Shown here in pieces: positions 987 to 20,312 of a DNA stretch of 20,312 nucleotides; position 1 is the first letter of the stretch, and each line of letters begins with the position of its first letter. A program made the position numbers and the translations under genes. A model generated the notes under the pieces. It searched no databases and had not been told where the DNA came from. It saw only the letters and a program-made list of their open reading frames with translations. The stretch lies in IMG/VR virus record IMGVR_UViG_3300025450_000157, positions 1 through 20,312 of that record. The stretch is one strand, 5' to 3'. Source of the stretch: a virus.

Positions 987-987
987 G

Positions 988-4008: not shown

Positions 4009-4022
4009 TTTCTAGCTCCTTA

Positions 4023-4679: not shown

Positions 4680-4702
4680 TTAAGACCTCCGAAAGAGAAT
4701 TT

Positions 4703-6192: not shown

Positions 6193-6202
6193 TTATTGCT
6201 CC

Positions 6203-6785: not shown

Positions 6786-9355
6786 TTAGTTTCCTTCTTT
6801 GGTTTTTTAACATTCACTGATTGTTTTTGAATGTTCAATTGATGTTCCTGCTGCATAGCTGTCTTAGCAACGTCCATCAGACCTTTACCTGTAGCCAACT
6901 TATGTTCTTTGTCTATCTGCATTTGGTCACGTAAGGCATCCGTCATCAACTTACCTGCAGCGATTCGATCTGCTGACTTGGTTTTTTGATTTTGAATTAC
7001 TGCATTAGCGGCCAACGTACCTGCTGCAATCCGGTTTTGTGCCTGAATGCGCTGCGCTTCAATCTCCAATTTCTTAAGCTGGATTTGGGCGTCGGTCTGA
7101 TCCTTTTGATTCTTACGCTGTTGCTCTTGAGCCTTGAGTTGCAGCTCTTGCATTTGCATTTGAATGATCGGGTCTTGTGCCTGTTGTTGAGCTTGTTGCT
7201 GTGCGGCCTGTTGTTTGTTTTGAGCCAGCAGACGTTGTGCAGCTTGAGCCAACATTGGGGACATACGAGCTTCTACTTCTGGTGACAAGTCCACATCTTC
7301 TTCCGCACCAAGTTCGTCTTCTTTCTGCGCAGGCATGTTGTAGCCTAGTTGCTTCTCGATCTCTTTGCGGTACTGGAACCCGATATGCTCGTTGATGTGC
7401 GCCATCATGGCGGCTTCTAACTGTTGAGCTTGTGGGTTGTTTTGTAGCAATTGCAGGATTTTTGGGTCTTGCATCGCTGCCATGTGAACTGCAATATGTG
7501 ACTCGTGATCTTGATAACTGAATGCCTTGACTGGCTTCATCATTAGGATGTTTTGGTTTTCAGTTACTGGATCAGCTGGCTTCTGGTCAATAGCCATAGG
7601 TATTAATTTTTCTACATTCTTAACACCCAAGACTTCAATCATCTGCCTATGCAGGAGTGGTAAATTATATAGTTGCGGAGCTTGCTGAGCCAACTGCAGT
7701 ACAGCTTGATACTGAACAATTTTTTGAGCCATCGTGCTAGCATTTGGATCGCTAACCGGCACAACGTCAATATCATCGTAGTCAGATTTCTTAGCTGATG
7801 CTTGGCCTTCAACTGGCTCATAGTCATACTCTTCTGGTGTGTAGTCGGCAATAATGACTTTAAGCAAACGGAACTCTTGGCGCATTGAGTAGTGCAAACG
7901 TGCTTGAATTGCGCTCATCACCTTCAAAGTTCGCTCAAGTATCGCTAACGTCGTACCCACTGGAGCGTTGCCGCCCATGTCAGAAACTTGTAAGTCACCA
8001 GCAGAAATGAAACTACGACCTTCTTGCACGATCTGATTAAATAACTGGAACAACGTCTGGCTTGGCTCTTTGTATGGGAGCAACATCACGTTGTCTTTGA
8101 TCGTACCGCTTGGGACATCTACGTCTCTAAACTCTCCCGGGCTAATGGGGGTATCATCGCCTTTGACACGCAATCCACGCGACTTAAGTCCACCGGGAAG
8201 GTTTGATAATGTGCCTGCATCCACCAACTGCCGAACAATGGACGTAGCACTACGAGCGTAACCGCCGATAAGATGAATAAGACCGTAACCATAAAAGCCA
8301 AACCCCGGGACATACTGGTAATGAACAAAGTGAACACGTTTAGTCTTGAGTGGATCATCCTCGTACCAGTTACGTCTAATAGCTAATACTCGGCCTGAAC
8401 TCTTCTCAATAGTAATAATGTAAGGTAGCGCAACGCCTGTCGGTTCATCATCCTTATCCATATCTTCGTAACCGGGAAGATCATAGTCTACGTGCATCTC
8501 TAGTATACGGAACCGATTATCATTTATCGCTGTGAAGCCCTGCTCTTCTGCCTTGCGTTTTTCAATATCGTCAAGGACTGCATAAGGTTCACCTAAGTCA
8601 ATATCTCTATAGAACCCAGCAACTTGTAGCTTCTTTACCTCGTTCTTTGTCTTGCGCATTACGTGAGTCATACGCTCCGCAGTATCCAGATTACTTGCAC
8701 CATAGGGCACAACAAAATCTTCTGCGGGAACAAACATCGCTACTTGTCTGTCTAAGCTGGGATCAAAATAAACTTTCTTAAACGCCGAGCCTGCCAGTGG
8801 TAAATTCCACAATAGCTTCTCATGCTCTGGGCGATACTCGGTCATTTGCTCGGTCAGCTTGTAGTTCATATCGTCGCTGACACGTATAGAGGCTTCTCGT
8901 TTTTCTGTGGTTTCTTTACCAATAATCTGGGTTTTTACAGGACCCATTGCAGGAAAGGTTTCCATGATTGCTTCGGATTGAAACCTGACAACCGCCTCTG
9001 CCAACATAGGATGGTAAACACCACAAGCGCCAGCCCAAGGCTCGGTAGTTTCTTCATACTTTAGCCCTAGTAATTTAAGACCCTCGACATAGGTATCCGC
9101 CCAATCTTTACGTGCTGACTGATCGGCTTCAAACAAACCTACCAATTCACTACCAATAGTCATTAATTCTGATTCGGACAGGTCTTCGGCTAAATTTCGA
9201 CTAAAGTCTTCATCGCCCTCTTTCTCAATATCAATCTCCATATCCCCCGCTTTAATATGTACTGCTTCGGGATCAACGACTTCGATCTCAATTGGCTCTG
9301 CTTGTGTCGCAGCTATTCCCTGTGGGGCCTGATATAATCCTTTGTTGATTGCCAT
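6782..9355 (-). CDS. Portal protein (P22-like) with Gln-rich coiled-coil tail
   Basis: This is an 857-residue protein directly after the large terminase. The portal would be a dodecameric ring at one capsid vertex, the DNA entry channel and terminase dock. Supporting segments are a GLKLLGLKYEETTEPWAGAC region near residue 95, FRILEMHVDYDLPGYEDM near 280, and HYQYVPGFGFYGYGLIHLIG followed by QLVDAGTLSNLPGGLKSRG near 340-395, a typical portal core. Residues about 690-857 are an unusual Gln/Ala/Lys-rich helix (QQAAQQQAQQQAQ, then LKAQEQQRKNQKDQ), likely a long coiled coil comparable to the C-terminal barrel of P22-type portals. P22 portal has about 725 residues, so this one is long. The gene starts 8 bases after the terminase stop. 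Confidence 0.88.
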   Translation of the reverse strand: MAINKGLYQAPQGIAATQAEPIEIEVVDPEAVHIKAGDMEIDIEKEGDEDFSRNLAEDLSESELMTIGSELVGLFEADQSARKDWADTYVEGLKLLGLKYEETTEPWAGACGVYHPMLAEAVVRFQSEAIMETFPAMGPVKTQIIGKETTEKREASIRVSDDMNYKLTEQMTEYRPEHEKLLWNLPLAGSAFKKVYFDPSLDRQVAMFVPAEDFVVPYGASNLDTAERMTHVMRKTKNEVKKLQVAGFYRDIDLGEPYAVLDDIEKRKAEEQGFTAINDNRFRILEMHVDYDLPGYEDMDKDDEPTGVALPYIITIEKSSGRVLAIRRNWYEDDPLKTKRVHFVHYQYVPGFGFYGYGLIHLIGGYARSATSIVRQLVDAGTLSNLPGGLKSRGLRVKGDDTPISPGEFRDVDVPSGTIKDNVMLLPYKEPSQTLFQLFNQIVQEGRSFISAGDLQVSDMGGNAPVGTTLAILERTLKVMSAIQARLHYSMRQEFRLLKVIIADYTPEEYDYEPVEGQASAKKSDYDDIDVVPVSDPNASTMAQKIVQYQAVLQLAQQAPQLYNLPLLHRQMIEVLGVKNVEKLIPMAIDQKPADPVTENQNILMMKPVKAFSYQDHESHIAVHMAAMQDPKILQLLQNNPQAQQLEAAMMAHINEHIGFQYRKEIEKQLGYNMPAQKEDELGAEEDVDLSPEVEARMSPMLAQAAQRLLAQNKQQAAQQQAQQQAQDPIIQMQMQELQLKAQEQQRKNQKDQTDAQIQLKKLEIEAQRIQAQNRIAAGTLAANAVIQNQKTKSADRIAAGKLMTDALRDQMQIDKEHKLATGKGLMDVAKTAMQQEHQLNIQKQSVNVKKPKKETK

Positions 9356-9363
9356 AATCTGTC

Positions 9364-10896
9364 CTATACGTTATAAAACCCAGCGTTGCGTTTTGATTTA
9401 AAATACCGAATCTCTTCGGGTTCGTCAGACTGCAGACGAATAAACCCGCCTCTACGGAAACGCATTAACGCTTGGGTCATGGAGTCAACTAAGTCATCAT
9501 GCTCGCCTGAAGGGAATGAGGCCACCTCTTCTACAAGCTCTTCTGCCCAATGTGTATTGGGAACCCACACGAATCCACTTGCAAACATATCCGCAACGGA
9601 GTTTAATCGGGCAATTTTATCATTGCCTTTACTGGGAGTATAATCCTGCACCGGTATTCCCATCGCTCTAAGTTCAAACAATAGCGGCGCACCCGAAGCT
9701 TTCGCTTCAACAATAAGTGCATCTGGCTCCCATTGTTGGTACTGCTCCATCGCTTTTTGCTTCAGTTCCGGAAACTCCATACGCTTTTTAAACGCATTTA
9801 ATAAGATAATATTGGCTTGCGCCACGCCCCTATCGTCATCATGGTAGAAAACACCCCACGTTGTGCATGCTGAATAGTCACTTCGCTGTGTTTTTAGGAA
9901 CGCCGTATCCCAAGATTGGATGATAAAGTCACAATAAGGGGGTCCATCCCCCTCCCAAATGTTCCACCACTCACGTTTTACGATAGCATTTACGTCAGAA
10001 GTTGGCTGTTGCTGGTACTGAGCCTGCCATTTACCTATAGGAAGTTCATGTCTTAGCGCTTCTAACTGTTCTAATGGCCAAAATTCAGGCCAAAGTGGGT
10101 TGCCACTCGGTAAAATTGCAGGAAATTCGATTACTTTCCACTCTTCTCCATTTCTTTCCAGCGAAGATTTGAGAACTTGCCCTGTTAAATCACGTTTTGA
10201 CCAGCGAGTCATCACTATAACGATAGCCCCGCCCGGCTGTAGACGCTGACGAGGGCCTGATGTGTACCACTCGTAGGTTTTATCGTAGACTTCTGGGTTA
10301 TTTTCAGCTATGGTTGCTTCTTGTTCTGAGTGCGGGTCGTCAATAATGAGGATATCTGCGCCCTTACCCGTAACAGCACCGCCCACACCGATAGCAAAGT
10401 AGTCTCCACCAGCGTTAGTCGCCCACCGGCCAGCAGCTTTAGAGTCCGCTTGTAGTCCAACTCCCGGAAATATTGACTTATACACTTCCGAATCGACCAA
10501 GTTTCTAACTTTCCTACCAAAACCAACAGCCAATTCAGCGGTGTGAGACGTTTGAATAACTTTTTTACCCGGGAACTTACCCAAGAACCAAGCTGGAAGA
10601 AGATAAGACGCAAACTCAGACTTAGTATGACGAGGAGGCATATTAATAATAAGGCGCTTACAGGTGCCATTGGCCACCTCCTCAAATGCTGCAGCCATTC
10701 TCGCATGGTGTCTACCCGCTATGAACGACGGCCAGACCTTCTCAACGAATGCCAAGAACCTCTTTTGCGATAACTCTTTAGACTTAAGCTCTTCTAGCTT
10801 ATCTAGCTCAACCAGTAACTGCCTTTGCTCGGCTGCTGACAATTTACTCAATATGCTGGGTATTTTGTCGAGGTCTATGTTCTGGTCAATCTGCAT
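9364..10896 (-). CDS. terL: Large terminase subunit (ATPase/nuclease)
   Basis: This is a 510-residue DNA-packaging motor. The ATPase domain has a variant Walker A (PPRHTKSE, residues 87-94), Walker B (ILIIDD, 182-187) and the coupling motif TRW (230-232). The nuclease domain of RNase H fold has acidic residues at SWD330, IVE397 and EHDD468, which would bind the metals that cut concatemeric DNA. Length and domain order are normal for the family. I chose the ATG at 10894-10896 because GAGGAAG lies 6-8 bases upstream. An ATG at 10917 would add 7 residues but has no ribosome site and a longer overlap. The gene overlaps the small-subunit-like gene by 11 bases, consistent with coupling. Confidence 0.93.
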   Translation of the reverse strand: MQIDQNIDLDKIPSILSKLSAAEQRQLLVELDKLEELKSKELSQKRFLAFVEKVWPSFIAGRHHARMAAAFEEVANGTCKRLIINMPPRHTKSEFASYLLPAWFLGKFPGKKVIQTSHTAELAVGFGRKVRNLVDSEVYKSIFPGVGLQADSKAAGRWATNAGGDYFAIGVGGAVTGKGADILIIDDPHSEQEATIAENNPEVYDKTYEWYTSGPRQRLQPGGAIVIVMTRWSKRDLTGQVLKSSLERNGEEWKVIEFPAILPSGNPLWPEFWPLEQLEALRHELPIGKWQAQYQQQPTSDVNAIVKREWWNIWEGDGPPYCDFIIQSWDTAFLKTQRSDYSACTTWGVFYHDDDRGVAQANIILLNAFKKRMEFPELKQKAMEQYQQWEPDALIVEAKASGAPLLFELRAMGIPVQDYTPSKGNDKIARLNSVADMFASGFVWVPNTHWAEELVEEVASFPSGEHDDLVDSMTQALMRFRRGGFIRLQSDEPEEIRYFKSKRNAGFYNV

Positions 10897-11476
10897 CGGG
10901 TTCTTCCTCGATGTCATCTGGTTGCAGCTCGATGCGCAACTCTTCTTCTAGCGTGTCACTTATGGGGGTAACGTCGATCACATCTGCATTGAGCAATCTT
11001 TTAACCCGCTCTTTGATTGCATTTTCTAGATCGGACGACGATTTGTAGTTGACTGTAACTTCGCTTCGCTCGGTGAATAGTCCGATGTCGCTGTGCTTAC
11101 CAAGCAGCTCGAGTGCTTTGAGTTCGTACTTAGGATCACCACAATTGGCAATCTCCATAAGTTTCGCAGTAACCGCTGAACGAGTCTCATGCACATCCAT
11201 TGCCAACTGATTGGCGTACTGTTTGAGGAATTCTTTTGCCGCATACGCAGCGGTGGGTTGTTGCAAGGCTGATGCTTTCTGGTTACTAATAGCGGATGTC
11301 ACTAATTTCTTAGTCTGCTCCAGTTCTTCCGGAGTAGCTTCTATCGTCATGCCTAATTCTTCAAGCATGTCCACTGTGTTAGCTGTTACCGCAAGTTCGT
11401 CTTGAAAAGTCTTAGGCTTCTCGTCATCCGTGTTGTACGGAACCTTCGGCCCTTTGGATGGCTCAATAGTAATCAT
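10886..11476 (-). CDS. terS: Probable small terminase subunit
   Basis: This is a 196-residue acidic protein immediately before and overlapping the large terminase gene, the standard place for the DNA-recognition subunit. Residues about 75-130 are helical (FLKQYANQLAMDVHETRSAV, then AKLMEIANCGDPKYELKALE). The next segment, LLGKHSDIGLFTERSEVTVN, is of a type I recall in small terminase proteins (linker and oligomerisation region). The C-terminus is highly acidic (EELRIELQPDDIEEEPDAD). No canonical helix-turn-helix is obvious at the N-terminus, which is disordered-looking. There is no Shine-Dalgarno sequence before the ATG, and the possible promoter leaves a leader of only about 18 bases. Confidence 0.7.
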   Translation of the reverse strand: MITIEPSKGPKVPYNTDDEKPKTFQDELAVTANTVDMLEELGMTIEATPEELEQTKKLVTSAISNQKASALQQPTAAYAAKEFLKQYANQLAMDVHETRSAVTAKLMEIANCGDPKYELKALELLGKHSDIGLFTERSEVTVNYKSSSDLENAIKERVKRLLNADVIDVTPISDTLEEELRIELQPDDIEEEPDAD

Positions 11477-11500
11477 GTGTTGTATTTTTGCAACCGCTAA

Positions 11501-11529
11501 AGTATTTAGTAGTACGGTGATAAGTGCAA
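11501..11529 (-). promoter_or_regulatory. Possible promoter for the terminase genes
   Basis: On the minus strand TTGCAC (11524-11529) and AATACT (11501-11506) are 17 bases apart, just upstream of the small terminase gene. TACTTGCAC is shared with the promoter candidate at 2982-3009. The -10 matches the consensus at four of six positions and the -35 is poor, so this is a tentative site. Confidence 0.3.
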
Positions 11530-11536
11530 GTATATA

Positions 11537-11914
11537 TTATTTTTTACGCTTTGCAACTTTTGCTCGCTTTATTGCTTCATGCTCATCGTAGTGATGTATG
11601 CGGTGGCAGTTAGCACAAAGCACTTGACACTTCTTAATTTCTTTCTTTGCAGCGCTTATGTTCCAGTTACGTAGAAGCTCATGTACTTTTCTGTTAGACT
11701 TATCTCTAACGATGTGATGGAAGTCCAACGTAGCGGGGTGATTTTGTCCGCATTTTTCGCAAGCCAGTGTAGCCTTGAATTCCTGCCACTGCTCTCGCGC
11801 CTTTTTCTTAGCTGCCGTCGTAGCGGCGAGTACCTTCTCTTTATTAGCTAAGTAGTAGTTCCTTGAATATTCTTTATGTTTACGCTTACGTTCTTCCGGG
11901 TCTTTAATGGGCAT
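11537..11914 (-). CDS. HNH endonuclease
   Basis: This is a 125-residue protein with a basic helical N-terminus (residues 1-50, rich in Lys and Arg) and an HNH zinc module. C52-x2-C55 and C100-x2-C103 form the likely structural zinc site. LDFHH (66-67) carries the first catalytic histidine and CANCHRIHH (H104, H107/H108) the last part. It ends in a KRAKVAKRKK basic tail. HNH proteins coded beside terminase genes (HK97 gp74 is the known example) assist specific DNA cleavage during packaging, which is a reasonable role here. It could instead be a free-standing homing-type endonuclease, since such genes also occur near terminases. It overlaps the upstream gene by 11 bases. Confidence 0.88.
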   Translation of the reverse strand: MPIKDPEERKRKHKEYSRNYYLANKEKVLAATTAAKKKAREQWQEFKATLACEKCGQNHPATLDFHHIVRDKSNRKVHELLRNWNISAAKKEIKKCQVLCANCHRIHHYDEHEAIKRAKVAKRKK

Positions 11915-12569
11915 TAAAGCATCTCTCTAAGAATAACTTCTTAAACTTAGGCGGCAACTTCGTATAGTCATTGTTGAAGTCGGTTGGCATCCTAGTCCAT
12001 ACATCCGCTAGATAAAACGGTGACTTTCCTTTCGGGTACCAAGCACGGGTATGAGCCATCACGAGGTAGAAGTATACATAAGCGTTTGCCTTTTGTACGT
12101 ATTCTTTACTATTAATTGGTAGATAGAACTCATTGATCTTAGCAGCAGACCTGATCTCGCAGTCTAGTTCTAGTGCAGCGCATGCGGTGACTACCTCTTT
12201 AATCTTAGCTTTGGGCAGCTCTATCTCTTTAGTTAGCCATTGATGCAGCAAGTCAAGTGGGGCATAAGCCTCGTCCTTCCATATAATTTGCTGATCCCAT
12301 ATTGGCACTTTCTGTATGAATTGATCTCTATGGCAGCTCTCATGTACAAGTATAGGTAGCCATTTGCCGGAATCCATGTAACAGGCCACAACTAATTCCG
12401 GCAGGGAATCGCAGAAGTAACCAGAGCATCTCACCCCATCTACTCTTACAGCTTGCTTACGTAGCAGCTTGACCCCTATGTCATGTGCATTGCTTGTGGC
12501 TATTTCGAAATTGACCCATGTCTGCATGTCCTTTGGTAGCCCTTTGATATCAATTTCAATCTGGTTCAT
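11904..12569 (-). CDS. Putative HExxH zinc metallopeptidase
   Basis: This is a 221-residue protein, the first gene of the minus-strand block. LPILVHESCHRDQFIQ contains HExxH at H76-E77-S-C-H80. About 54 residues later AALELDCEIRSAAKI (E134, D136, E138) offers acidic residues like the third zinc ligand of gluzincins. The N-terminal 70 residues include a short Cys-containing segment (VRCSGYFCD). The C-terminal part is aromatic-rich (KANAYVYFYLVMAHTRAWYP). No secretion signal is seen, so it would act in the cytoplasm or within the particle. The metallopeptidase fold is inferred from motif spacing; substrate and role are unknown. The start is set by GGAGG 5 bases upstream and by a TATAAT box about 30 bases from the ATG. 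Confidence 0.7.
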   Translation of the reverse strand: MNQIEIDIKGLPKDMQTWVNFEIATSNAHDIGVKLLRKQAVRVDGVRCSGYFCDSLPELVVACYMDSGKWLPILVHESCHRDQFIQKVPIWDQQIIWKDEAYAPLDLLHQWLTKEIELPKAKIKEVVTACAALELDCEIRSAAKINEFYLPINSKEYVQKANAYVYFYLVMAHTRAWYPKGKSPFYLADVWTRMPTDFNNDYTKLPPKFKKLFLERCFNAH

Positions 12570-12598
12570 TGCATCCTCCGGTTAGCTAGGTCTAACTA

Positions 12599-12604
12599 AT
12601 TATA
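12599..12604 (-). promoter_or_regulatory. -10 box of a possible late promoter
   Basis: A perfect TATAAT on the minus strand lies about 30 bases before the start of the HExxH gene, with GGAGG between. No TTGACA-like -35 is present; the -35 area is the C-rich complement of the poly-G tract. A promoter needing an activator would look like this, but that is inference. Confidence 0.4.
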
Positions 12605-12607
12605 TAT

Positions 12608-12765
12608 GGGGGAGGGGGGTGTGGGAGGTAATAAATATGTATGGGGGGTATGGCTAAGGTTCATTTAGTACAAGGGGGGTATTTTTGTAGCGTGATATTG
12701 GTTGTGCAGATTATAGAGTAAGCCAGAACTACGGGACTCCTAAGTAAAATTTTGGGGGCGGGGGG
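12608..12765 (+). repeat. Cluster of poly-G tracts
   Basis: The plus strand carries six runs of five or six Gs within 158 bases: 12608-12612, 12614-12619, 12643-12648, 12674-12679, 12754-12758 and 12760-12765. A GGG at 12623-12625 lies between them. The surrounding sequence is AT-rich. The first block has enough closely spaced runs for a G-quadruplex, though one loop would be long. A regulatory or replication role is possible; assembly error in homopolymers should also be considered. Confidence 0.7.
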
Positions 12766-12766
12766 T

Positions 12767-12788
12767 TAAAAATAACAAATGTTATTTA
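12767..12788. repeat. Palindromic operator-like repeat, copy A
   Basis: The core AAATAACAAATGTTATTT (12770-12787) has two 8-bp arms around a 2-base spacer. The 22 bases at this site are identical to copy B at 13461-13482, on the other side of the 183-residue gene. The spacer is too short for a good RNA hairpin, so a dimeric DNA-binding protein is the likelier ligand. Confidence 0.75.
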
Positions 12789-12911
12789 TTATAAAGTTTA
12801 CGTAAAACCTGATTTTCTCGATTAACTTAGGCATACTAGACTCATGGCAAGCGATAAAGCAAACCATAATTTAACATTACATTACTTAACCTTACTTAAC
12901 GGAGTTATACC

Positions 12912-13463
12912 ATGCAAACCTTAAATAACATTGTTACCGATACTGAAGTTATTGTTTCTAACGCAATGGCTATGCTTAACGAAAAGCAAGCGGAGCTTGC
13001 GAAAGCTCGTACTCAACTAGTTAACAAAGCCAAAGGTACAGGCGAGGTTATCAATACGTATGCCCGTATCCTTTGCGAACTTTACGATATTTACGGTACT
13101 GATAACAAACTAGCTTTCAAATGGTACGAGCGCAAGGGCAAACTGAAACAACCAATTAACGAGGAGCGAGACTTATTCGTAAAGGACATGAGCAATGCGG
13201 GATTTGATAAACCCACGATAACAACATATTGGCAACGTGTTAAGGTCGCATCAGGTTATATTACCCCAAACAATAGGGTATCAGGCGGCGAGGTCAATAT
13301 CGACGATGTTACTAAAAAGGAGTTAAATACCATTATCAATCGTATCTACAAATCAGAGGAGGATAACTTGACTACTAACAACAAGGCATTGGATGCAATG
13401 CACCTACTTGTGCAAGCTTTCGAGGCATTAGGCGGCGATGTTACCAAACTCGGCACTAAGTAA
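12912..13463 (+). CDS. Unknown 183-residue protein; candidate phage regulator
   Basis: This is a 183-residue soluble protein with GGAG 8 bases before its ATG. Residues 1-45 are helical (DTEVIVSNAMAMLNEKQAEL). A charged middle follows (FKWYERKGKLKQPINEERDL). The segment FDKPTITTYWQRVKVASGYI, about residues 97-116, has the pattern of a helix-turn-helix with a basic second helix, although no family is recognised. The gene stands alone. It is bracketed by identical palindrome-bearing 22-bp repeats, and the downstream copy lies between its stop codon and a strong terminator. A self-regulating DNA-binding protein that binds the TAACA-NN-TGTTA palindromes is an attractive inference. A replication-initiation or single-strand-binding role cannot be excluded. 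Confidence 0.75.
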   Translation: MQTLNNIVTDTEVIVSNAMAMLNEKQAELAKARTQLVNKAKGTGEVINTYARILCELYDIYGTDNKLAFKWYERKGKLKQPINEERDLFVKDMSNAGFDKPTITTYWQRVKVASGYITPNNRVSGGEVNIDDVTKKELNTIINRIYKSEEDNLTTNNKALDAMHLLVQAFEALGGDVTKLGTK

Positions 13464-13482
13464 AAATAACAAATGTTATTTA
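13461..13482. repeat. Palindromic operator-like repeat, copy B
   Basis: This site is identical over 22 bases to copy A. Its palindromic core is 13464-13481. It overlaps the TAA stop codon of the 183-residue gene and abuts the terminator stem. Confidence 0.75.
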
Positions 13483-13505
13483 ATCCCGCTTCGGCGGGAT
13501 TTTTT
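13482..13505 (+). terminator. Strong rho-independent terminator with TTCG loop
   Basis: An 8-bp stem AATCCCGC/GCGGGATT closes a TTCG tetraloop and is followed by a T5 tract. It begins 19 bases after the stop of the 183-residue gene. The UUCG loop makes this hairpin especially stable. Confidence 0.92.
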
Positions 13506-13517
13506 ATGTCTACTAAT

Positions 13518-13532
13518 TGAGAATCGTTCTCA
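13518..13532. promoter_or_regulatory. Fur-box-like palindrome
   Basis: TGAGAATCGTTCTCA is a perfect palindrome with 6-bp arms and a 3-base centre. It matches the 7-1-7 Fur consensus TGATAATnATTATCA at 11 of 14 defined positions. No promoter is visible directly beside it, so function is uncertain. Confidence 0.35.
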
Positions 13533-13554
13533 TTCTTATTATGATAGTTTCCAA

Positions 13555-13578
13555 GAGCGAAAGCGAAAGCGCAAGCGA
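13555..13578 (+). repeat. Tandem hexamer repeat (AAGCGA x4)
   Basis: Four consecutive hexamers read GAGCGA, AAGCGA, AAGCGC, AAGCGA. It is a short purine-rich tandem array in non-coding DNA; no role is evident. Confidence 0.6.
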
Positions 13579-13610
13579 GAAGTTTGTTAACAATATACGG
13601 GTAAACCCTG

Positions 13611-13750
13611 CTAATGTTACGATGTTATTTAGTGTAAAGTACAATGTTATGATAACAATGTAATAAAATCAAGGACTTAGCCTAATGTTACAATGTTATG
13701 TGAAAAAACCTATATGTTCCGGATTTTCAGATCAAAAGAGATAACAATGT
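13611..13750. repeat. Cluster of ATGTTA/TAACAT repeats with an 18-bp direct repeat
   Basis: CTAATGTTACGATGTTAT at 13611-13628 recurs with one change (A for G) at 13682-13699. Between and after them lie ACAATGTTAT (13641-13650) and inverted copies ATAACAATGT at 13652-13661 and 13741-13750. These units resemble half-sites of the AAATAACA-NN-TGTTATTT palindrome. They could be low-affinity binding sites or iterons. Confidence 0.6.
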
Positions 13751-13936
13751 TGTGTAAGCAAAAGTACTTTCACTTTGCTTCATATATATATTTTTAAATA
13801 ACAATAATTTATAATAGTTAACACATCTCGCAAACCTACTATTCATGCGGGTTTAGGATTGTTACGTAGTTTTCCGATTTCCATAACTTTTAACATAACA
13901 AAGCACCTCATTCCTGAACATTACATTTAGCTATTA

Positions 13937-13950
13937 TTTTATGCTATACT
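13937..13950 (+). promoter_or_regulatory. Extended -10 promoter
   Basis: TTTTATGCTATACT ends in TATACT (13945-13950) preceded by TGC, an extended -10. The same TTTTATGnTATA core occurs in the two strong promoters at 14315 and 16338. No good -35 is present. It lies 25 bases before the next start codon. Confidence 0.6.
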
Positions 13951-13975
13951 ATTATTTTATTCATTAGGACTAATC

Positions 13976-14293
13976 ATGCGCTCAAAATACCTCAAACTGC
14001 TCAACCTTGACTACCTCGACCTATATAACCTTGTTAGAGGAACAGACTTCGAAAACTACACTAAGGTACGCAATGCAATTCACGAGGAGTTAAAACTGCA
14101 TAACATTACGCCAACATATTTCAACGTGTTCTGGTCAAATGCACTGAAGGAGATGCAAAAGCAATTCAAGTACAAGCCGCCATATAGCCAATGCCCAAAT
14201 GCTCTGCGTGCTGCTAAGAAACGAGAAGTACTCAAAGCCCACTTCAAGCAACTCTATAGGAAACTTAACAATGCTAAGCCAATGGATAAGTGA
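13976..14293 (+). CDS. Small basic protein of unknown function
   Basis: This is a 105-residue basic protein, rich in Lys, Tyr and Leu, starting MRSKYLKLLNLDYLDLYNLV. The C-terminal half (PNALRAAKKREVLKAHFKQL) is a charged helix. AGGA lies 6 bases before the ATG. No family is recognised. It has its own promoter on the left and stands before the first strong early promoter, so it may be a short monocistronic unit. A nucleic-acid-binding role would suit its charge but is speculative. Confidence 0.65.
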   Translation: MRSKYLKLLNLDYLDLYNLVRGTDFENYTKVRNAIHEELKLHNITPTYFNVFWSNALKEMQKQFKYKPPYSQCPNALRAAKKREVLKAHFKQLYRKLNNAKPMDK

Positions 14294-14314
14294 ACCATCA
14301 ACAAGGCTATTTAC

Positions 14315-14343
14315 TTGACATTGTACAGTTTTTATGATATAAT
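14315..14343 (+). promoter_or_regulatory. Consensus sigma70 promoter (early operon 1)
   Basis: TTGACA (14315-14320), a 17-base spacer and TATAAT (14338-14343) are all perfect consensus, with an extended TGA before the -10. It should be read by the host RNA polymerase without help, which fits early expression. The upstream and spacer bases are nearly the same as in the promoter at 16338-16366. Confidence 0.93.
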
Positions 14344-14401
14344 AGAAGGGTAGGGCAAAGTTATATAACATTACGCCAGTAAGCACAGCAAATGCAGCGA
14401 C

Positions 14402-14419
14402 AAATAACAAATGTTATTT
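14402..14419. repeat. Palindromic operator-like repeat, copy C
   Basis: AAATAACAAATGTTATTT, identical to the cores of copies A and B. It starts 58 bases after the -10 of the promoter and ends 15 bases before the ATG at 14435, just left of the ribosome site. A bound protein here could block elongation or initiation of translation-coupled transcription. Confidence 0.75.
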
Positions 14420-14434
14420 TTCAGGGAGAACGAC

Positions 14435-14650
14435 ATGCACAACGAGGACATCAAGTACTTATGTAACAAATGTTATGGAGGTTATGTACCTTTAGGGCGG
14501 CATCGTCTGGGCTACACAACATGCTTACCATGCGGTGACTTGCAAGCTAAACAAGTTAAACACACCATAGCACCTATTAACAAAAGCAACTATATGCACA
14601 TCAGCGACATGAGTATGCTCAAACAACTTAACCCTAAGAGGACAATGTGA
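14435..14650 (+). CDS. Small zinc-ribbon protein
   Basis: This is a 71-residue protein from the ATG at 14435, chosen because AGGGAG lies about 7 bases upstream; an in-frame ATG at 14411 falls inside the operator palindrome. CNKC near the N-terminus and CLPC 17 residues later form a four-cysteine zinc site (YLCNKCYGGYVPLGRHRLGY between). The C-terminus (HTIAPINKSNYMHISDMSML and QLNPKRT) is of a type I recall in small phage zinc-finger proteins of unknown role. It is the first gene of early operon 1. Nucleic-acid or protein binding is likely, with the partner unknown. Confidence 0.75.
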   Translation: MHNEDIKYLCNKCYGGYVPLGRHRLGYTTCLPCGDLQAKQVKHTIAPINKSNYMHISDMSMLKQLNPKRTM

Positions 14651-14817
14651 TGGACTGGACTGAGAGTAACAATATGACAAACGACTTTGAGAGAATTGAA
14701 CTGGCGTTCGACATACTGGCGGGTTGCGAAGTGATGGAGGAGTTTGAAGATTCACTCTGGATAAAGATAGATAAAGAATTGTGGAATCAATTCCAAGGAG
14801 TAAGTGATGAAAGTTAA
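14650..14817 (+). CDS. Small acidic protein (55 residues)
   Basis: The ATG overlaps the preceding TGA stop (ATGA), and the frame runs 55 codons to the TAA at 14815-14817, which overlaps the next gene by 11 bases. The protein starts MDWTESNNMTNDFERIELAF and continues DILAGCEVMEEFEDSLW. It is acidic, with four or five aromatic residues, and predicted helical. No family is recognised. The start-stop overlaps on both sides and the absence of any other gene in this stretch support it. A second ATG at codon 9 is a possible alternative start. Confidence 0.6.
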   Translation: MDWTESNNMTNDFERIELAFDILAGCEVMEEFEDSLWIKIDKELWNQFQGVSDES

Positions 14818-15382
14818 CATTGGCAATTACAAAAGTTGGTACGGATGCTATCAGTTAGCTGAAAACCTGCTGTTCTGGAAAGACAAGAACGATGACAAAG
14901 TTATGATGCTAGGCGATTGGTTAGCAGGGGAGAAGAATGATTCATGGTTGCAGAAAGCGTTATTGTGGATAGCCGATAAGCGCAAGCGCACAATCAAGGT
15001 GCATATAGATGAGTGGGATACATGGAGCGCAGACCATACGCTATCTTTAATTATCTTACCCTTACTAAAGCAGTTGAGAGCAACGACAAATGGCGCACCT
15101 TATGTGCAGGACGAGGATGTGCCAGAGGAATTACGCTCAACTAATGCACCCAAACCAGAACAAAGTTATGACGTAGATGATAACCACTTCAAGCGGTGGG
15201 AGTGGGTGCTAGATGAGATGATCTTTGCACATGAGCATATCGTAAGCGACGAGTGGGAGAACGAGTACTACAAAGCAGATGCCCAAGCGGATTGCGACTG
15301 GGATGGGTTAAATGCAATGAATGAGCGTATTAGCAGAGGGCTAATGTTATTTGGTAAATACTACAGGGGGTTATGGGTATGA
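14807..15382 (+). CDS. Conserved phage protein of unknown function
   Basis: This is a 191-residue acidic protein starting at the ATG at 14807, with GGAG 7 bases upstream; a GTG one codon earlier is less well placed. Its core, IKVHIDEWDTWSADHTLSLI followed by PLLKQLRATTNGAPYVQDED and VPEELRS, then FKRWEWVLDEMIFAHEHIV, recalls a protein family common among phages of Gram-negative bacteria. The end (RISRGLMLFGKYYRGLWV) also fits that family. To my knowledge no function has been assigned. It is rich in Trp and acidic residues, with no membrane span. It lies in early operon 1 and overlaps both neighbours. Confidence 0.8.
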   Translation: MKVNIGNYKSWYGCYQLAENLLFWKDKNDDKVMMLGDWLAGEKNDSWLQKALLWIADKRKRTIKVHIDEWDTWSADHTLSLIILPLLKQLRATTNGAPYVQDEDVPEELRSTNAPKPEQSYDVDDNHFKRWEWVLDEMIFAHEHIVSDEWENEYYKADAQADCDWDGLNAMNERISRGLMLFGKYYRGLWV

Positions 15383-15453
15383 TTGACGCAGCGATTCTAT
15401 TTGTGTGTTTGTTATGTGGTATCTGGGCAGTACTTGAAATCATAGGAGATTGA
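15379..15453 (+). CDS. 24-residue membrane micropeptide
   Basis: The ATG overlaps the stop of the previous gene (ATGA), and the frame ends with TGA one base before the next ATG, so it fills the gap exactly. The peptide begins MIDAAILFVCLLCGIWAVLE and is almost wholly hydrophobic, a single membrane span with a charged C-terminus (EIIGD). A G-rich ribosome-site candidate precedes it. Its short length means chance cannot be ruled out, but position and composition favour a real small membrane peptide. Confidence 0.5.
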   Translation: MIDAAILFVCLLCGIWAVLEIIGD

Positions 15454-15454
15454 C

Positions 15455-16324
15455 ATGGGATTCGGTTACGGTTACGCCACTAGGAATAGCGGCATTAGGT
15501 TTATCAATAGTTATGAGCAAGCCCTTGAGCAGTACGAGACTACTGTGCCTATCAGAGGTAGAGGCGATGTGCGTCCGCTTGGACATCGTAGGAGTGTAGA
15601 TAGCTACAAGATAGATAAGCTAGAGAACGGTGACATCAGGTGCTTGTTAGTTACTAGGCCAATGGTTATTTTCCATCCAGACAATACGGTCTCTGTGTAC
15701 CAAGGTTGGGTAGGCACGGGTGCGTGTGCATTTATAGGCGAGGTGTTACGTGGTGTGGGTGCGAGGGTGTTCGATGGGCGCATCGTGCTGTGCATCAGAG
15801 ACAAGGAGTTTAGGTTAGATCCAAAAGAACCGTTCAAACTTAGGCGCAATGAGTCTGGTTACTGGGAGGCGGCAGAGATACCCAAGGCTTATACGTATCA
15901 CATTAGGCGCAAGGAGTATAAGCAAGTCAAACAGAGATACGCAGAGATACGTGACTACGTTATCGGCATGGCTAAGCTGCGGGAGAACGGAGAAGTAACT
16001 TATGAGGAGAAGGTAGAGTTATTCGGTGAAGTGGATTATAAGTACGAAGAAGATGGGACTACCTATAAAAGACTTAATTTACCTAGAGTATCAGTCACTA
16101 GCCCTGAGTGCATAAACTTAATGGTTAAGTGGTTCAACGAGGGGGAGCAGTACAAGGCGTTTGTCTTTACGTATACCTTTACTGGTATGTGGAGAATTCG
16201 GAGTAAAGATATTGCTGATATGTTGGACTCGTTTATCTTAGCTAAGCATAGAGATGAAGTGATTAAGAAGGTAGAGTTACCCGATGGTATGGTACGCAAG
16301 AATAAGTATTCGTATCTATTTTAG
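15455..16324 (+). CDS. Conserved phage protein of unknown function (289 residues)
   Basis: This is a 289-residue basic protein with AGGAG 7 bases before its ATG. The N-terminal third has a repeated strand-like pattern (DVRPLGHRRSVDSYKIDKLE, then DIRCLLVTRPMVIFHPDNTV and YQGWVGTGACAFIGEVL). This resembles hypothetical proteins I recall in several phages that start with a similar 'PLG-RR' block. The C-terminal half is charged (IRRKEYKQVKQRYAEIRDYV). No catalytic motif is recognised. It is the last gene of early operon 1; the next promoter begins 13 bases after its stop, with no terminator between, so read-through into operon 2 is likely. Confidence 0.75.
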   Translation: MGFGYGYATRNSGIRFINSYEQALEQYETTVPIRGRGDVRPLGHRRSVDSYKIDKLENGDIRCLLVTRPMVIFHPDNTVSVYQGWVGTGACAFIGEVLRGVGARVFDGRIVLCIRDKEFRLDPKEPFKLRRNESGYWEAAEIPKAYTYHIRRKEYKQVKQRYAEIRDYVIGMAKLRENGEVTYEEKVELFGEVDYKYEEDGTTYKRLNLPRVSVTSPECINLMVKWFNEGEQYKAFVFTYTFTGMWRIRSKDIADMLDSFILAKHRDEVIKKVELPDGMVRKNKYSYLF

Positions 16325-16337
16325 TTGGCCTATATAC

Positions 16338-16366
16338 TTGACATTGTATAGTTTTTATGTTATACT
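16338..16366 (+). promoter_or_regulatory. Strong sigma70 promoter (early operon 2)
   Basis: TTGACA (16338-16343), 17 bases, then TATACT (16361-16366) with an extended TGT. The spacer TTGTATAGTTTTTATGT differs at two positions from that of the promoter at 14315. The two form a duplicated promoter cassette. Confidence 0.9.
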
Positions 16367-16424
16367 TATCAGGTAAGGCGCAGTTTGTTTGTAGTGCATG
16401 CAGTAAACAAAGTAAACGCAGTAA

Positions 16425-16442
16425 AAATAACAATTGTTATAT
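16425..16442. repeat. Palindromic operator-like repeat, copy D (variant centre)
   Basis: AAATAACAATTGTTATAT contains the perfect 14-bp palindrome ATAACAATTGTTAT (16427-16440). It starts 58 bases after the -10 box, exactly as copy C does, and lies just left of the AAGGA ribosome site of the AAA+ gene. Confidence 0.75.
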
Positions 16443-16461
16443 CTAATCTAAGGAAAACATC

Positions 16462-17529
16462 ATGGCTAATATCGACTTTGGTAAGACCGTAACCCTGCAA
16501 CAAGCAGCACAGTTAATCGCAGCAACCCCTGAGAATCGCTATCTATTACGAGGCGAGCCGGGCATTGGCAAATCATCTCTACTTAAGCAGTTAGGTGCAA
16601 TGTTTCCTGACCATGAGATTGCGTATATCGATGTACCTAATATGGACTTGGGTGACATTGCTATGCCTGTGATTGACCATGAGAGCAAGACAACCGCATA
16701 CTACCCGAACCGCAGATTCAAGATGCACACGGGCAAGCCAGTCATTATTATGCTTGACGAGTTTACCAAGGGCGCACAGCCTGTAGTTAATATGTTGCAT
16801 CCGCTACTGGAGAAGGCTAACCCCCGCTTGGGTGACATCACTTGCAGCCCAGATAACATTGTTTTTATGACGGGCAATATGTCCGGTGACGGTGTGGGTG
16901 ACAACATGAAAGCGCACACTCTTAATCGTGTTGTACCAGTAACAGTACGCAAGCCTAGCGCAGATGAGTGGATCGGTTGGGCTATCGAGCATGAGGTAGC
17001 ACCCGAAGTGTGTGCATGGGTTAAACAATTCCCTCACGCAATGGCGAGTTACATGGACGCAGCATCAGGGGATAACCCTTATATCTTTAACCCTAAGAAA
17101 GTACAGCAAGCGTATGTATCGCCTCGCTCGTTGGAGACTGCATCTAACATTGTTAAGAAGCGTGGCAAGTTAGATGCCGATACTATCATCAATGCTCTTA
17201 CAGGCGCAGTTGGCGAGGCCGCAGCCAGAGATATGCAAGCGTACATCGAGTATTCAGATCAGTTACCTACGTGGGAGTCAATTACGAGTGACCCTAACAA
17301 TGCGCTTATCCCTACGTCAGCCGGTGCATGTGCAATTATGGTATTCGGTGCAATCGCTAAGGTGACTAAAGAATCGATGGATAAGTTTATGCAGTATCTC
17401 GAACGGTTCGAACCAGAGTGGCAAGCATGTTTTGCTATCAATATCGCTAAGACTTCAAGCAAGCAGCAAGTGGCGTTTAGTAGCAAGAAGTTCAGCGACT
17501 GGGTTGCTAAGAACCAAGACTTACTATGA
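16462..17529 (+). CDS. MoxR-type AAA+ ATPase
   Basis: This is a 355-residue AAA+ ATPase. It shows Walker A GEPGIGKS (31-38), Walker B VIIMLDE (94-100, D99 and E100), sensor 1 asparagine in FMTGNMSGD (N139), a likely arginine finger near R156 (HTLNRV) and sensor 2 in SPRSL (R222). MoxR-type ATPases work with VWA-domain partners (CobS-CobT, NorQ-NorD, RavA-ViaA) to remodel or insert metals into target proteins, and such a partner is coded about 350 bases downstream. The C-terminal 130 residues form a helical region with no recognised domain. AAGGA lies 7 bases before the ATG. It is the first gene after the second strong promoter. The phage target is unknown. Confidence 0.9.
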   Translation: MANIDFGKTVTLQQAAQLIAATPENRYLLRGEPGIGKSSLLKQLGAMFPDHEIAYIDVPNMDLGDIAMPVIDHESKTTAYYPNRRFKMHTGKPVIIMLDEFTKGAQPVVNMLHPLLEKANPRLGDITCSPDNIVFMTGNMSGDGVGDNMKAHTLNRVVPVTVRKPSADEWIGWAIEHEVAPEVCAWVKQFPHAMASYMDAASGDNPYIFNPKKVQQAYVSPRSLETASNIVKKRGKLDADTIINALTGAVGEAAARDMQAYIEYSDQLPTWESITSDPNNALIPTSAGACAIMVFGAIAKVTKESMDKFMQYLERFEPEWQACFAINIAKTSSKQQVAFSSKKFSDWVAKNQDLL

Positions 17530-17774
17530 TCGATGACTTAAGGATACGCAAGTATGGGGCGTTGTTCATAGTGGAGTGGTGGGAGGTTAAAGATGCAGGG
17601 AATAGGAAAGCCCTTGTTGCTAAGGCTAACTTCTACTCTGCTATGGACGAGTTAGACGCATTCAGGCAGCACCAACAATTTACGGAAAGACATAATGGAC
17701 ATGACAATAGCGGAGTGGTTTCTACTGATATGGGCGCTAGTGATGACGTACCTATGGAGAATAACAATTGTTAG
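17526..17774 (+). CDS. Small protein of unknown function (82 residues)
   Basis: The start overlaps the stop of the AAA+ gene (ATGA), indicating translational coupling. The N-terminal part, IRKYGALFIVEWWEVKDAGN and ANFYSAMDELDAFRQHQQF, looks like a compact alpha/beta protein. The last 25 residues are Asp/Asn/His-rich and disordered-looking, and they overlap the next small frame. The stop codon lies inside a variant palindrome. No family is recognised. Confidence 0.6.
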   Translation: MIDDLRIRKYGALFIVEWWEVKDAGNRKALVAKANFYSAMDELDAFRQHQQFTERHNGHDNSGVVSTDMGASDDVPMENNNC

Positions 17775-17883
17775 ATTCATAGACTTCAGAGATCATACGT
17801 TTCTAACTATTGAGAAATCACTAGAAGGTAAAGGTAAGTTCGTCAAAGTAAGTGAAACAAGTATTACTTTCGAGGAGTTTTGA
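17695..17883 (+). CDS. Small membrane protein (62 residues), overlapping frame
   Basis: The frame starts at ATG 17695 with GGAAAG upstream and ends 1 base before the VWA gene start. It overlaps the preceding gene by 80 bases in another frame. Residues about 6-25 (AEWFLLIWALVMTYLWRITI) form one membrane span, and the rest is charged (FRDHTFLTIEKSLEGKGKF). The stretch from 17775 to 17883 would otherwise be empty in this tightly packed operon, which favours a real gene. The long overlap is unusual, so doubt remains. Confidence 0.5.
   Translation: MDMTIAEWFLLIWALVMTYLWRITIVRFIDFRDHTFLTIEKSLEGKGKFVKVSETSITFEEF
17760..17774. repeat. Palindromic operator-like repeat, copy E (partial)
   Basis: AATAACAATTGTTAG holds the 12-bp palindrome TAACAATTGTTA (17762-17773). 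It matches the centre of copy D but lies inside coding sequence, at a gene end, and lacks the outer arm bases. No promoter was found beside it. Confidence 0.45.
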
Positions 17884-17884
17884 T

Positions 17885-19078
17885 ATGAACGACAAGCAAG
17901 AACGCAGATTGAAAAAGATCAAGATCACGTTGATGCGTAACCCTGAGTTTGCATTGTGGTCGGGCATTATGATGGTCGGCAAGACTCGTGTGGATGATAA
18001 CTTTCCTAGCGCAGCGACTAATGGTAGGGACGAGTGGTACGGGCGCAAGTTTATCGATGGCCTCGATGACAAAGAGTTAGCGTTCGTTGTACTGCATGAG
18101 AATATGCACAAGGCTTATAGGCACTTGACTACGTGGAAGAAACTTAGCGATGAGAACCGCCTCTTAGCCAACGCTGCATGTGACTATGTTATTAACTTGC
18201 AACTCAAAGACTTAGACCCGCACGAGAAAGTAATTGCTATGCCAATGAAGGATGGCAAGGTGTATGGCTTGGTTGATGAACGGTTCCGAGGTATGAACGC
18301 TAAGCAAGTGTTCGACATACTAAAGAAAGAGCAAGGCGAAGGTGGTGATGGCGGTGAAGGTGGTGAAGGTTTTGATGAGCATGACTGGGAGGGTGCAGCC
18401 GAGTTATCCGAGGATGAGAAGCGTGAGTTAGAGCGTGAATTGGACAATGCCCTGCGCTCTGGGCTTATTGCTAACAAGCGTATTGGTAAGGGTAACGGTG
18501 GCATTAACCACGAAGTTGAGGAGATGCTTACACCGCAAGTTGATTGGCGTGAGCAGTTACGGGAGTTTGTCAAGGCTGTATGTAATAACAAGGATGCTTC
18601 ATCATGGCGACGAGTGAACAGACGATTTTTATCAGGCGACGTATATATGCCTACGATGATTGGGGAAAAGGTTGGACATATTGCTATCGGCAGAGATACG
18701 TCTGGAAGCATGGGCGGGTCAGAGTTGGCAGCGGCAGCGGCAGAGACTAAGGGTATTGCATCCGAGGTTAGCCCTGAGAAGATCGACATGATCGATTGGG
18801 ATTCATCAGTTGAGAAGCATGAAGTGTATGAGGGTAACGCAGTAACCAGTATCGAAGCGGGCAAGATGCGTGGCGGTGGTGGTACTGACCCTCGTTGTAT
18901 GGCGGAATATCTCAAGGCGCAAGCAATAAAGCCTGAGTGTGTGGTTGTGCTAACAGATGGTTATATCAATGACTGGGGTACTGAGGATGATTGGCAGGGT
19001 GTGCCTGTGTTATGGGCAATCGTTGGTGGTAATAACGTAGTTGCACCGATTGGCAAAACTATTCACGTAAAGGACTGA
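17885..19078 (+). CDS. VWA-domain protein with HExxH metallopeptidase-like domain
   Basis: This is a 397-residue protein with two domains. The N-terminal domain (about 1-145) has VVLHENMHKAYRH (HExxH at H71-E72 and H75) and then ANAACDYVINLQL (D100), as in the peptidase-like domain found with VWA proteins (PF13203/DUF2201 type). A Gly/Glu linker (about 150-170) leads to a C-terminal VWA domain with an intact metal site: DTSGS (271-275), GGGTDP (T334) and VLTDGY (D358). It is the likely partner of the MoxR-type ATPase upstream, as in CobT or NorD systems. The start at 17885 is set by GAGGAG; an earlier in-frame start has no ribosome site. Whether the peptidase site is active is not known. Confidence 0.9.
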   Translation: MNDKQERRLKKIKITLMRNPEFALWSGIMMVGKTRVDDNFPSAATNGRDEWYGRKFIDGLDDKELAFVVLHENMHKAYRHLTTWKKLSDENRLLANAACDYVINLQLKDLDPHEKVIAMPMKDGKVYGLVDERFRGMNAKQVFDILKKEQGEGGDGGEGGEGFDEHDWEGAAELSEDEKRELERELDNALRSGLIANKRIGKGNGGINHEVEEMLTPQVDWREQLREFVKAVCNNKDASSWRRVNRRFLSGDVYMPTMIGEKVGHIAIGRDTSGSMGGSELAAAAAETKGIASEVSPEKIDMIDWDSSVEKHEVYEGNAVTSIEAGKMRGGGGTDPRCMAEYLKAQAIKPECVVVLTDGYINDWGTEDDWQGVPVLWAIVGGNNVVAPIGKTIHVKD

Positions 19079-19079
19079 C

Positions 19080-19241
19080 ATGGATAAGGAACTAGATATA
19101 TGGGATGTGCAATTCCAAGAATTCTGGCATGAGTATGGTTTGACTTTGAAAGATAAGCACGATGCGTACTTTGCGTTTACTGAAGGGTGGCGTAAGGCCG
19201 TTGAGTTAATGATTGAGAAACTGGAGGCACGTTATGGCTAA
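19080..19241 (+). CDS. Small protein of unknown function (53 residues)
   Basis: The frame opens 1 base after the VWA stop with ATG and runs 53 codons to TAA at 19239-19241, overlapping the next gene by 8 bases. The protein (MDKELDIWDVQFQEFWHEYG, then a DKHDAYFAFTEGWRKAVELM helix) is acidic and aromatic-rich. No strong ribosome site is seen, so it may be translated by re-initiation after the VWA gene. No family is recognised. Tight packing on both sides supports a real gene. Confidence 0.6.
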   Translation: MDKELDIWDVQFQEFWHEYGLTLKDKHDAYFAFTEGWRKAVELMIEKLEARYG

Positions 19242-19488
19242 GGCAATCGTAAGTATTGGGTATAGAGAATACATAATGGACTTCAAGGATGCTTGTGCGG
19301 TGGCAGAGATACTTAGTACTGCTGAGTTATACAAGACTAAGTACAACAAAGACGATGGAGGTAACACACACGAAACGCTCCACGCATACCCACAAGATAA
19401 CTCTGATATGGCACATCTTTCAGTTAAGTTAATACCGGATGAGTTGTATCGCATGGCTAAGTTAGCGGGTAAGCCTAAGGATGAATGA
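19234..19488 (+). CDS. Small protein of unknown function (84 residues)
   Basis: The start is the ATG at 19234, with GGAGG 6 bases upstream, a near-ideal ribosome site. The protein starts MAKAIVSIGYREYIMDFKDA and has CAVAEILSTAELYKTKYNK; the second half is hydrophilic (HLSVKLIPDELYRMAKLAG). It looks like a small alpha/beta protein without a recognised motif. It overlaps neighbours on both sides within early operon 2. Confidence 0.7.
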   Translation: MAKAIVSIGYREYIMDFKDACAVAEILSTAELYKTKYNKDDGGNTHETLHAYPQDNSDMAHLSVKLIPDELYRMAKLAGKPKDE

Positions 19489-19679
19489 TGAGAACGGTAC
19501 GCATACTAGGAATTACAAGGGGGGCACTTGACGGGATGTATAACATTGACGCCCATTTATTATTTAGCGGCGGGTATGTGGAGTATTCATTTCCTTGGTA
19601 TTCCAGAGAGGCAATAGATGAGTTAGCAGTACTAAAGCAGTTGCAAAAATATCGTAGAAATATCGTAGTTTTATTTTAA
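19485..19679 (+). CDS. Small protein of unknown function (64 residues)
   Basis: The start ATG overlaps the TGA of the previous gene; a second ATG follows directly and could be used instead. AAGGATGA gives a ribosome site. The protein (MMRTVRILGITRGALDGMYN, then LLFSGGYVEYSFPWYSREAI) is mixed alpha/beta with a basic C-terminus (KQLQKYRRNIVVLF). No family is recognised, and the coupling to neighbours is the main support. Confidence 0.55.
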   Translation: MMRTVRILGITRGALDGMYNIDAHLLFSGGYVEYSFPWYSREAIDELAVLKQLQKYRRNIVVLF

Positions 19680-19696
19680 CCACAGGGAGTTTTACC

Positions 19697-20312
19697 ATGA
19701 GTATTTCATCAAGCGCAATGCTAGTAGAGTTGAACATCAGCGTATGGACAGCAGCAAAGTTAGACAAGGATGCAACCAAAGCGGTGATTAGTGATAACAA
19801 GGCATCGAGTGATTCGGGTTCGTTTCGTAAGAATCTGTTAGCGGGTACGTCATTACGCAAAGAGATTAGTGACTTTGCAGCAGCATGTCGGGCTTACCAT
19901 AACAAAGTTACATTGCCTTGGGCTGATCGAGGTGGGCGTATGTTACCCACGTCGTTGTTCATGGAGTACAAGCAGCAGATGAATGTTAAGCAAGCGTACT
20001 TCAACACGTTAACGCAACGGCTCTACGACAACTATGAGGGACTAAAAGAAACAGCTAAGACTTACATGGGCGATCTGTTCAATGAGGAGGACTACCCATC
20101 GGTTGATGAATTACAAAATAAGTTTGGGTTCCGGTTGGTGTTTAGCCCGTTACCCGAAGCTGGTGACTTTCGCTTAGATGTACCACAGCAGGACTTAGAA
20201 GAAATGAAGATGCAGTATGAGTCGGACTTCAGCAAGCGGTTAGCGGATGCGATGCGTAAGCCTTGGGATGACTTGCATAATCTTTTGCGGGGGATGAGCG
20301 AGAAACTATCAT
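19697..20312 (+). CDS. DUF3150-like phage protein, C-terminus missing (right edge)
   Basis: The frame opens at ATG 19697 with AGGGAG about 8 bases upstream and is still open after 205 codons at the window end. The sequence MSISSSAMLVELNISVWTAA, then KLDKDATKAV, DFAAACRAYHNKVTLPWADR, GGRMLPTSLFMEYKQQM, and later NKFGFRLVFSPLPEAGDFRL, closely recalls the DUF3150 proteins found beside CobS/CobT-like (MoxR and VWA) genes in phages. That assignment is from memory and should be tested by HMM. It is mainly helical and soluble. Its position three genes after the VWA gene supports a shared module. Its function is unknown. Confidence 0.72.
   Translation, partial: MSISSSAMLVELNISVWTAAKLDKDATKAVISDNKASSDSGSFRKNLLAGTSLRKEISDFAAACRAYHNKVTLPWADRGGRMLPTSLFMEYKQQMNVKQAYFNTLTQRLYDNYEGLKETAKTYMGDLFNEEDYPSVDELQNKFGFRLVFSPLPEAGDFRLDVPQQDLEEMKMQYESDFSKRLADAMRKPWDDLHNLLRGMSEKLS

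Follow-up and report, generated by a model that had tools for sequence, protein, structure and literature searches.

The early regions of a family of aquatic phages carry many copies of a short palindrome whose sequence is particular to each lineage, and in most genomes one copy lies a few dozen nucleotides downstream of each of two strong promoters. To account for the whole arrangement we favour a phage-encoded, probably homodimeric, sequence-specific regulator that would bind these dyads and arrest host RNA polymerase, an explanation to which, judging from the DNA, we give somewhat better than an even chance.

Layout of the window and its relatives

The window, by which we mean the whole stretch of DNA analysed, is a 20.3-kb phage fragment with leftward structural genes at 66–12569 (portal, terminase and capsid-region genes) and rightward genes at 12912–20312, among which are those for a MoxR-type AAA ATPase and for a DUF2201 VWA/metallopeptidase protein. 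The layout and the promoters suggest that the rightward genes are the early genes, and it is in this part that the palindrome array and the two promoter-operator cassettes are situated. Behind cassette 1 is a rightward gene for a 71-aa protein (14435–14650) that is conserved in the family (15 of the 15 genomes compared) and has no assigned function, and behind cassette 2 is the rightward ATPase gene (16462–17529; AAA_5, 2.4e-6; phrog_1297, 1.1e-46). The VWA/metallopeptidase partner of the ATPase (17852–19078, rightward; PF13203, 4.1e-25; PF09967, 3.4e-15) serves as a marker of the family.

Relatives were collected via the window ATPase, which matched 41 viral loci. The window shares the MoxR ATPase, the DUF2201 VWA protein and related terminase and portal proteins with the kin of the cultured Planktothrix phage Pag-Yong1. 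Three of the genomes (G002, G006 and G010), which are probably complete, carry 127-bp repeats at their ends. No tyrosine integrase was found in the 13 records searched and no serine recombinase in the 22 records searched, and a search of bacterial genomes for the ATPase, as a clue to the host, gave no match. Phages HTVC027P and DSL-LC04 have a terminase in common with the family; their annotation showed no ATPase/VWA module, and no enriched palindrome was found in either.

Two groups of small proteins in these phages are noted here. One is an HTH_3 (Cro-like) protein with the helix VSRQTVYNWFxG, encoded at G006:42424–42654 and in at least 594 viral contigs; the VWA marker is also present in nine of ten such contigs that were checked, and the protein may therefore serve to mark the family. 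The other comprises small early proteins resembling sigma-factor region 4, encoded near the ATPase and VWA genes in G014 (L064:12109–12387, leftward; Sigma70_r4, 3.5e-9), G006 (30023–30199) and G002 (59505–59657), which are possible phage readers of the −35 element.

Lineage-specific palindromes of the early region

In close relatives the early region has, at intervals of a few hundred bases, a 13-bp dyad, CTAACAWTGTTAG, which is the most enriched word there but not in the remaining genome. The different dyads of other lineages were found in an unbiased scan for inverted arms that recur, and include ATACTGTCWGACAGTAT in G014, TTAACAGGAGTTAA in G015, CTAACANNTGTTAG in both G021 and G026, GTTACAWTGTAAC in G023, AGTGACNNGTCACT in G022, and GGTTCAGSCTGAACC, with 22 copies, in Pag-Yong1. 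Most phages have 8–24 copies of one arm, compared with a maximum of 1–4 in Markov-shuffled genomes, and three (G016, G018 and G010) have few copies of their candidate dyads. Taken over 18 genomes including the window, there are 257 lineage-specific palindromes in 180 kb of early DNA and 7 in 582 kb elsewhere. We found no published description of such arrays in this phage family or in lytic phages in the open-access literature.

The palindromes are concentrated between genes and are evenly spread. With rough gene calls for the 18 genomes, 86 sites have a non-coding centre where 27 are expected, many others being within genes; with the GenBank gene calls for Pag-Yong1, 15 of its 22 sites are intergenic in a genome that is 12.9% non-coding (p = 3e-9). 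In the 14 genomes tested the sites are spaced more evenly than random placement would give, with nine individually below 0.05 and a combined p of 6e-14, a value that is too small since the genomes are related. In the ATPase gene of the phages with CTAACAWTGTTAG there are also dyads, at offsets 282 and 682, which occupy identical codons in many relatives; that at offset 282 has been lost from the window phage, whose operator is 14 bp long.

The window palindrome is a 14-bp dyad, ATAACA-NN-TGTTAT, for which there are nine matches with up to three mismatches (4.7 ± 2.0 expected), and all four exact copies are in the early region. Two of these are in the cassettes and the other two, at 12772 and 13466, are outside them, so that the palindrome is not limited to the cassettes. 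The first, ATAACAAATGTTAT at 12772–12785, lies upstream of gene 1, the first early gene, and has a counterpart 122–151 nt upstream of that gene in most relatives; the second, at 13466–13479, begins 3 nt past the gene 1 stop codon and directly before a rightward intrinsic terminator (13482–13508) that stands behind both the gene and the dyad. A probable operator with one mismatch, ATAACAATTGTTAG at 17761–17774, overlaps the stop codon of the ORF at 17526–17774, and its counterpart in G001, a relative with about 92% nucleotide identity to the window, is ATAACAGTTGTTAG. Another one-mismatch match, GTAACAAATGTTAT at 14463–14476, is within the gene at 14435–14650 and is not kept in G001; it is probably a coincidence of coding sequence.

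Several other repeated sequences are present in this part of the genome. Half sites, AATGTTAT and AATGTTAC, are clustered at window positions 13609–13760, some of them within imperfect large palindromes; AATGTTAY occurs 14 times in the window where 1.8 are expected; and the reverse strand of G001 at 23300–23700 contains many copies of CATAACATT. The intergenic stretch between the late and early genes (12600–12771), and the same place in relatives, contains runs of G (TTTTGGGGGTGGGGG) and, judged by eye, a conserved GTGCA-ATTATAGAGTA...GGAGTCCC. A leftward promoter may lie here; a simple search pattern for one between the late and early genes of the family matched only the window and G007.

Promoter-proximal sites and their proposed action

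There are 17 promoter-like sites in 12000–20312, a number not above that in shuffles (19.4 ± 4.9), and the top two, which are the sole near-perfect sigma-70 promoters there, are those of the cassettes. The rightward promoter of cassette 1 (14315–14343) is TTGACA-17-TATAAT and matches the consensus at 12 of 12 positions; that of cassette 2 (16338–16366, also rightward), which precedes the ATPase gene, is TTGACA-17-TATACT and matches at 11 of 12. Both have a TG before the −10 box, and the cassettes align as a 56-nt direct repeat with 79% identity, as expected from the claim of two look-alike promoters. The exact dyad copies (ATAACAAATGTTAT at 14404–14417 and ATAACAATTGTTAT at 16427–16440) each begin 60 nt past the last −10 base; the 58 nt given previously is the distance to an 18-nt form of the dyad that begins AAATAA, and for that form it is correct in both cassettes. 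The reported AAAYGCAG does stand before the two dyads, as AAATGCAG and AAACGCAG, but is one base out of register relative to them. The leaders are alike for the first ~20 nt of the transcript only (11/20), and over the whole 60-nt leader 22 positions agree (shuffle p = 0.07). G001 is without both promoters and retains the cassette 1 dyad, its homology to the window restarting exactly there, at 14404.

Across the family, 25 of 42 strong early-strand promoters are followed by a dyad of their own genome 25–74 nt after the −10 box, where 1.6 are expected. Most genomes have two such cassettes, 2–3.7 kb apart, and the second, as in the window, precedes the ATPase. This two-cassette layout is also present in G014 and G022, whose operators are entirely different in sequence, and the architecture therefore outlives the sequence. 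The dyads begin 29–64 nt after the −10 box (mean 48.5, SD 7.8), and pairs of distances within a genome are no closer than random pairs (8.0 versus 9.1 nt, p = 0.23). Constant spacing is thereby ruled out as a rule: the exactly conserved distance that had been proposed applies within the window (60 and 60) but does not extend to the leaders of related phages, whose variable spacing had been named in advance as a refuting outcome. Since distances vary and pairs within a genome are not alike, the equal spacing in the window is best read as chance or as common descent of both cassettes, inside the range permitted family-wide. With transcription starting some 7 nt past the −10 box, the dyads begin near +24 to +59; it is this range, and not an exact distance, that is conserved across the family.

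Two further features of the promoters were seen. A third type with a 16-nt spacer, TTGACA-16-TATNAT, occurs in five genomes (G002, G003, G006, G007 and G028), and in all five the next dyad is exactly 261 nt downstream. The spacers of cassette promoters within one genome resemble each other (G004, G021 and G029, and the window at 14315–14325).

An initiating polymerase covers DNA to about +20, and an elongating polymerase about 30–35 bp. As the dyads are beyond the footprint of the initiating enzyme, a protein bound to them would not block polymerase binding, in keeping with the earlier view that simple promoter occlusion is not involved. From among the roadblock, attenuation and antitermination offered in its place, the roadblock is the best reading, and we think that a regulator bound at the dyads probably arrests host RNA polymerase. 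As it accumulates, the regulator would bind every dyad. In a cassette, where the dyad is just past the open complex (edge near +20), polymerase would start and then stall within one polymerase length, leaving no room for a trailing polymerase to push, and the stalled enzyme would clog the promoter; the dispersed, evenly spaced dyads would stop polymerases that are already on the template or have started internally. The predicted outcome is a rapid shut-off of the early genes during infection. Work on LacI in E. coli predicts that at a spacing of one polymerase the promoter becomes clogged and polymerases no longer cooperate; lambda pL was inhibited 10-fold when the roadblock was placed close to it and 4-fold at 102 bp (PMC4132739). 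CI and Cro, both known repressors of phages, make weak roadblocks (PMC10310618), and roadblock strength would therefore have to be special to this protein.

Classical repression of initiation, with the near-promoter dyads looping to or cooperating with an operator-like sequence in the promoter and the dispersed copies acting as auxiliary or decoy sites, strikes us as unlikely. Operator-like half sites, TAACAATGTG, are present in the promoter spacers of G004 and G021, the −35 region of the window, TTGACATTGTA, can be counted as operator-like, and dyads flank some promoters on both sides, ~100–120 bp apart (L010, L013 and L016); the downstream dyads, however, start past the open complex, their distances (29–64 nt) keep no helical phase, and this reading leaves unexplained why coding regions remote from promoters are evenly covered too. 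Less likely again is a non-transcriptional role as nucleoprotein sites, for partition, replication, packaging, compaction or recombination boundaries. The even spacing would suit such a role, and the restart of homology between the window and G001 exactly at the 14404 dyad resembles a recombination boundary, but the sites are missing from the late structural part (the 7 sites in 582 kb noted above) and are strongly coupled to promoters.

In all likelihood the palindromes are symmetric DNA operators. Among one-mismatch variants of the 13-mer, 37 of 42 are at the two end positions, and these include mirror-image changes, C1>A (16) and G13>T (18), with no C1>T. Such mirror-image variants, lacking the wobble-type C1>T that would keep a U-G pair, argue for a DNA dyad rather than an RNA hairpin, and are the trace expected of a symmetric dimer reading DNA. 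A leader RNA element, with the hairpin as an attenuator, a nut-like antitermination site, or a site of processing or translational control, is accordingly very improbable in spite of its 5′ leader position, which recalls the lambda nut sites, the stems of 5–8 bp that can be drawn, and a weak polarity of about 2:1 at the centre of the 13-mer on the early strand (A 115, T 60). The symmetry extends into the would-be loop positions, 8–24 copies are scattered between and inside genes, folding of the leaders of both window cassettes is no stronger than that of shuffled sequence (z 0.1 and 0.4), and an Rfam search gave no matching family; the RNA hairpin was rejected on the variants, the folding and the Rfam result, and the attenuation and antitermination that had been offered beside the roadblock are likewise not supported. 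An activator or a phage-modified polymerase, as at middle promoters, could have lineage-specific sites near gene starts, as many of these are; the dyads, however, follow complete sigma-70 promoters and in many cases overlap a stop codon, and we regard this as the most improbable reading.

The candidate regulator and comparison with other systems

The leading candidate for the operator-binding protein, by position, is the product of gene 1 (12912–13463, rightward; 183 aa), an assignment that we make tentatively and at slightly less than even confidence. Almost all relatives have a first early gene at this place, coding for either homologues with a W-x-R-V motif or analogues, and often there is a second dyad directly behind it, in addition to the one upstream. 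In G014 and Pag-Yong1, which have different operators, the place is occupied by an unrelated-looking protein of similar size, and in G001 gene 1 is replaced, with no homologue, and most dyads are gone. The products of gene 1 in G023 and G026, which differ in their operators, are 23% identical. Counting against the assignment, the gene 1 proteins of some phages with the same operator are only 21% identical. A domain search of gene 1 gave no recognisable DNA-binding domain, its AlphaFold model (pLDDT 74) had no fold match in the PDB or BFVD, its alignment has no conserved stretch, and the window gene 1 had no close relative among the viral contigs searched; with no domain or fold for DNA binding, the case for gene 1 is therefore positional. 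Were gene 1 the regulator, the operators on both its flanks would make it self-limiting. Three genomes (G023, G026 and G028) have two gene 1 copies each. A conserved HTH_3 protein adjoining a 950-aa gene was also considered as the binder and set aside, since its G023 and G026 versions are 86% identical although the operators of the two phages differ.

The closest parallel is with the stoperators of cluster A mycobacteriophages (L5, Bxb1 and TipsytheTRex), in which a lineage-specific 13-mer is present in more than 20 copies, at promoters and in short intergenic spaces, with a consensus that drifts between relatives along with the phage, and which are proposed to stop elongation (PMC9283540, PMC6550527). 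The many dispersed copies of a genome-specific site and the short intergenic placement are common to both, although here many sites are within genes. In L5 the sites are asymmetric, their orientation to transcription matters, and they are bound by a monomer of the immunity repressor, which in such systems has an HTH and a stoperator domain; those described here are symmetric dyads of 12–18 bp with mirror-image variants, and have, unlike stoperators, a marked promoter-proximal class. Stoperator phages are temperate and encode an integrase or parABS, in contrast to these aquatic phages, in which no integrase was found in the records searched; to our knowledge, lysogeny is not known for them. Because the sites are symmetric and no integrase was found, we do not class the array as a stoperator system, which it would nonetheless resemble in function.

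Other systems share single features with this one. The C1 repressor of phage P1 is likewise one regulator with many dispersed operators, but P1 is temperate and its operators are asymmetric. The lambda nut site is similarly an element a few dozen nucleotides into an early transcript, but acts as RNA, whereas action as DNA is favoured here. Engineered or natural roadblocks of the LacI type also have an operator one polymerase length behind a strong promoter (PMC4132739, PMC10310618); the arrangement proposed here would differ in being natural and common to a whole phage family, and in having many additional sites.

A fuller picture, which we put forward as a possibility and with some doubt, is of a widespread, aquatic, apparently strictly lytic family with a stoperator-like system, in which a dimeric gene 1 regulator of a new DNA-binding family and of fast-evolving specificity would halt host polymerase at even, symmetric sites, clog the two main early promoters from a distance of one polymerase length downstream, and possibly exclude related superinfecting phages. 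The stoperators described so far are those of temperate actinobacteriophages and are asymmetric; a symmetric, lineage-switching version in a large aquatic family that has no recognisable integrase, if real, would suggest that phages more generally control elongation across the whole genome, and one would then ask what need a seemingly lytic phage has of such control. The placement in the cassettes would then be a natural instance of the design singled out as a strong roadblock by modelling and by the LacI experiments. With each lineage having its own operators, the family, which includes the cultured Pag-Yong1, would be a ready-made set for decoding how DNA-binding specificity changes.
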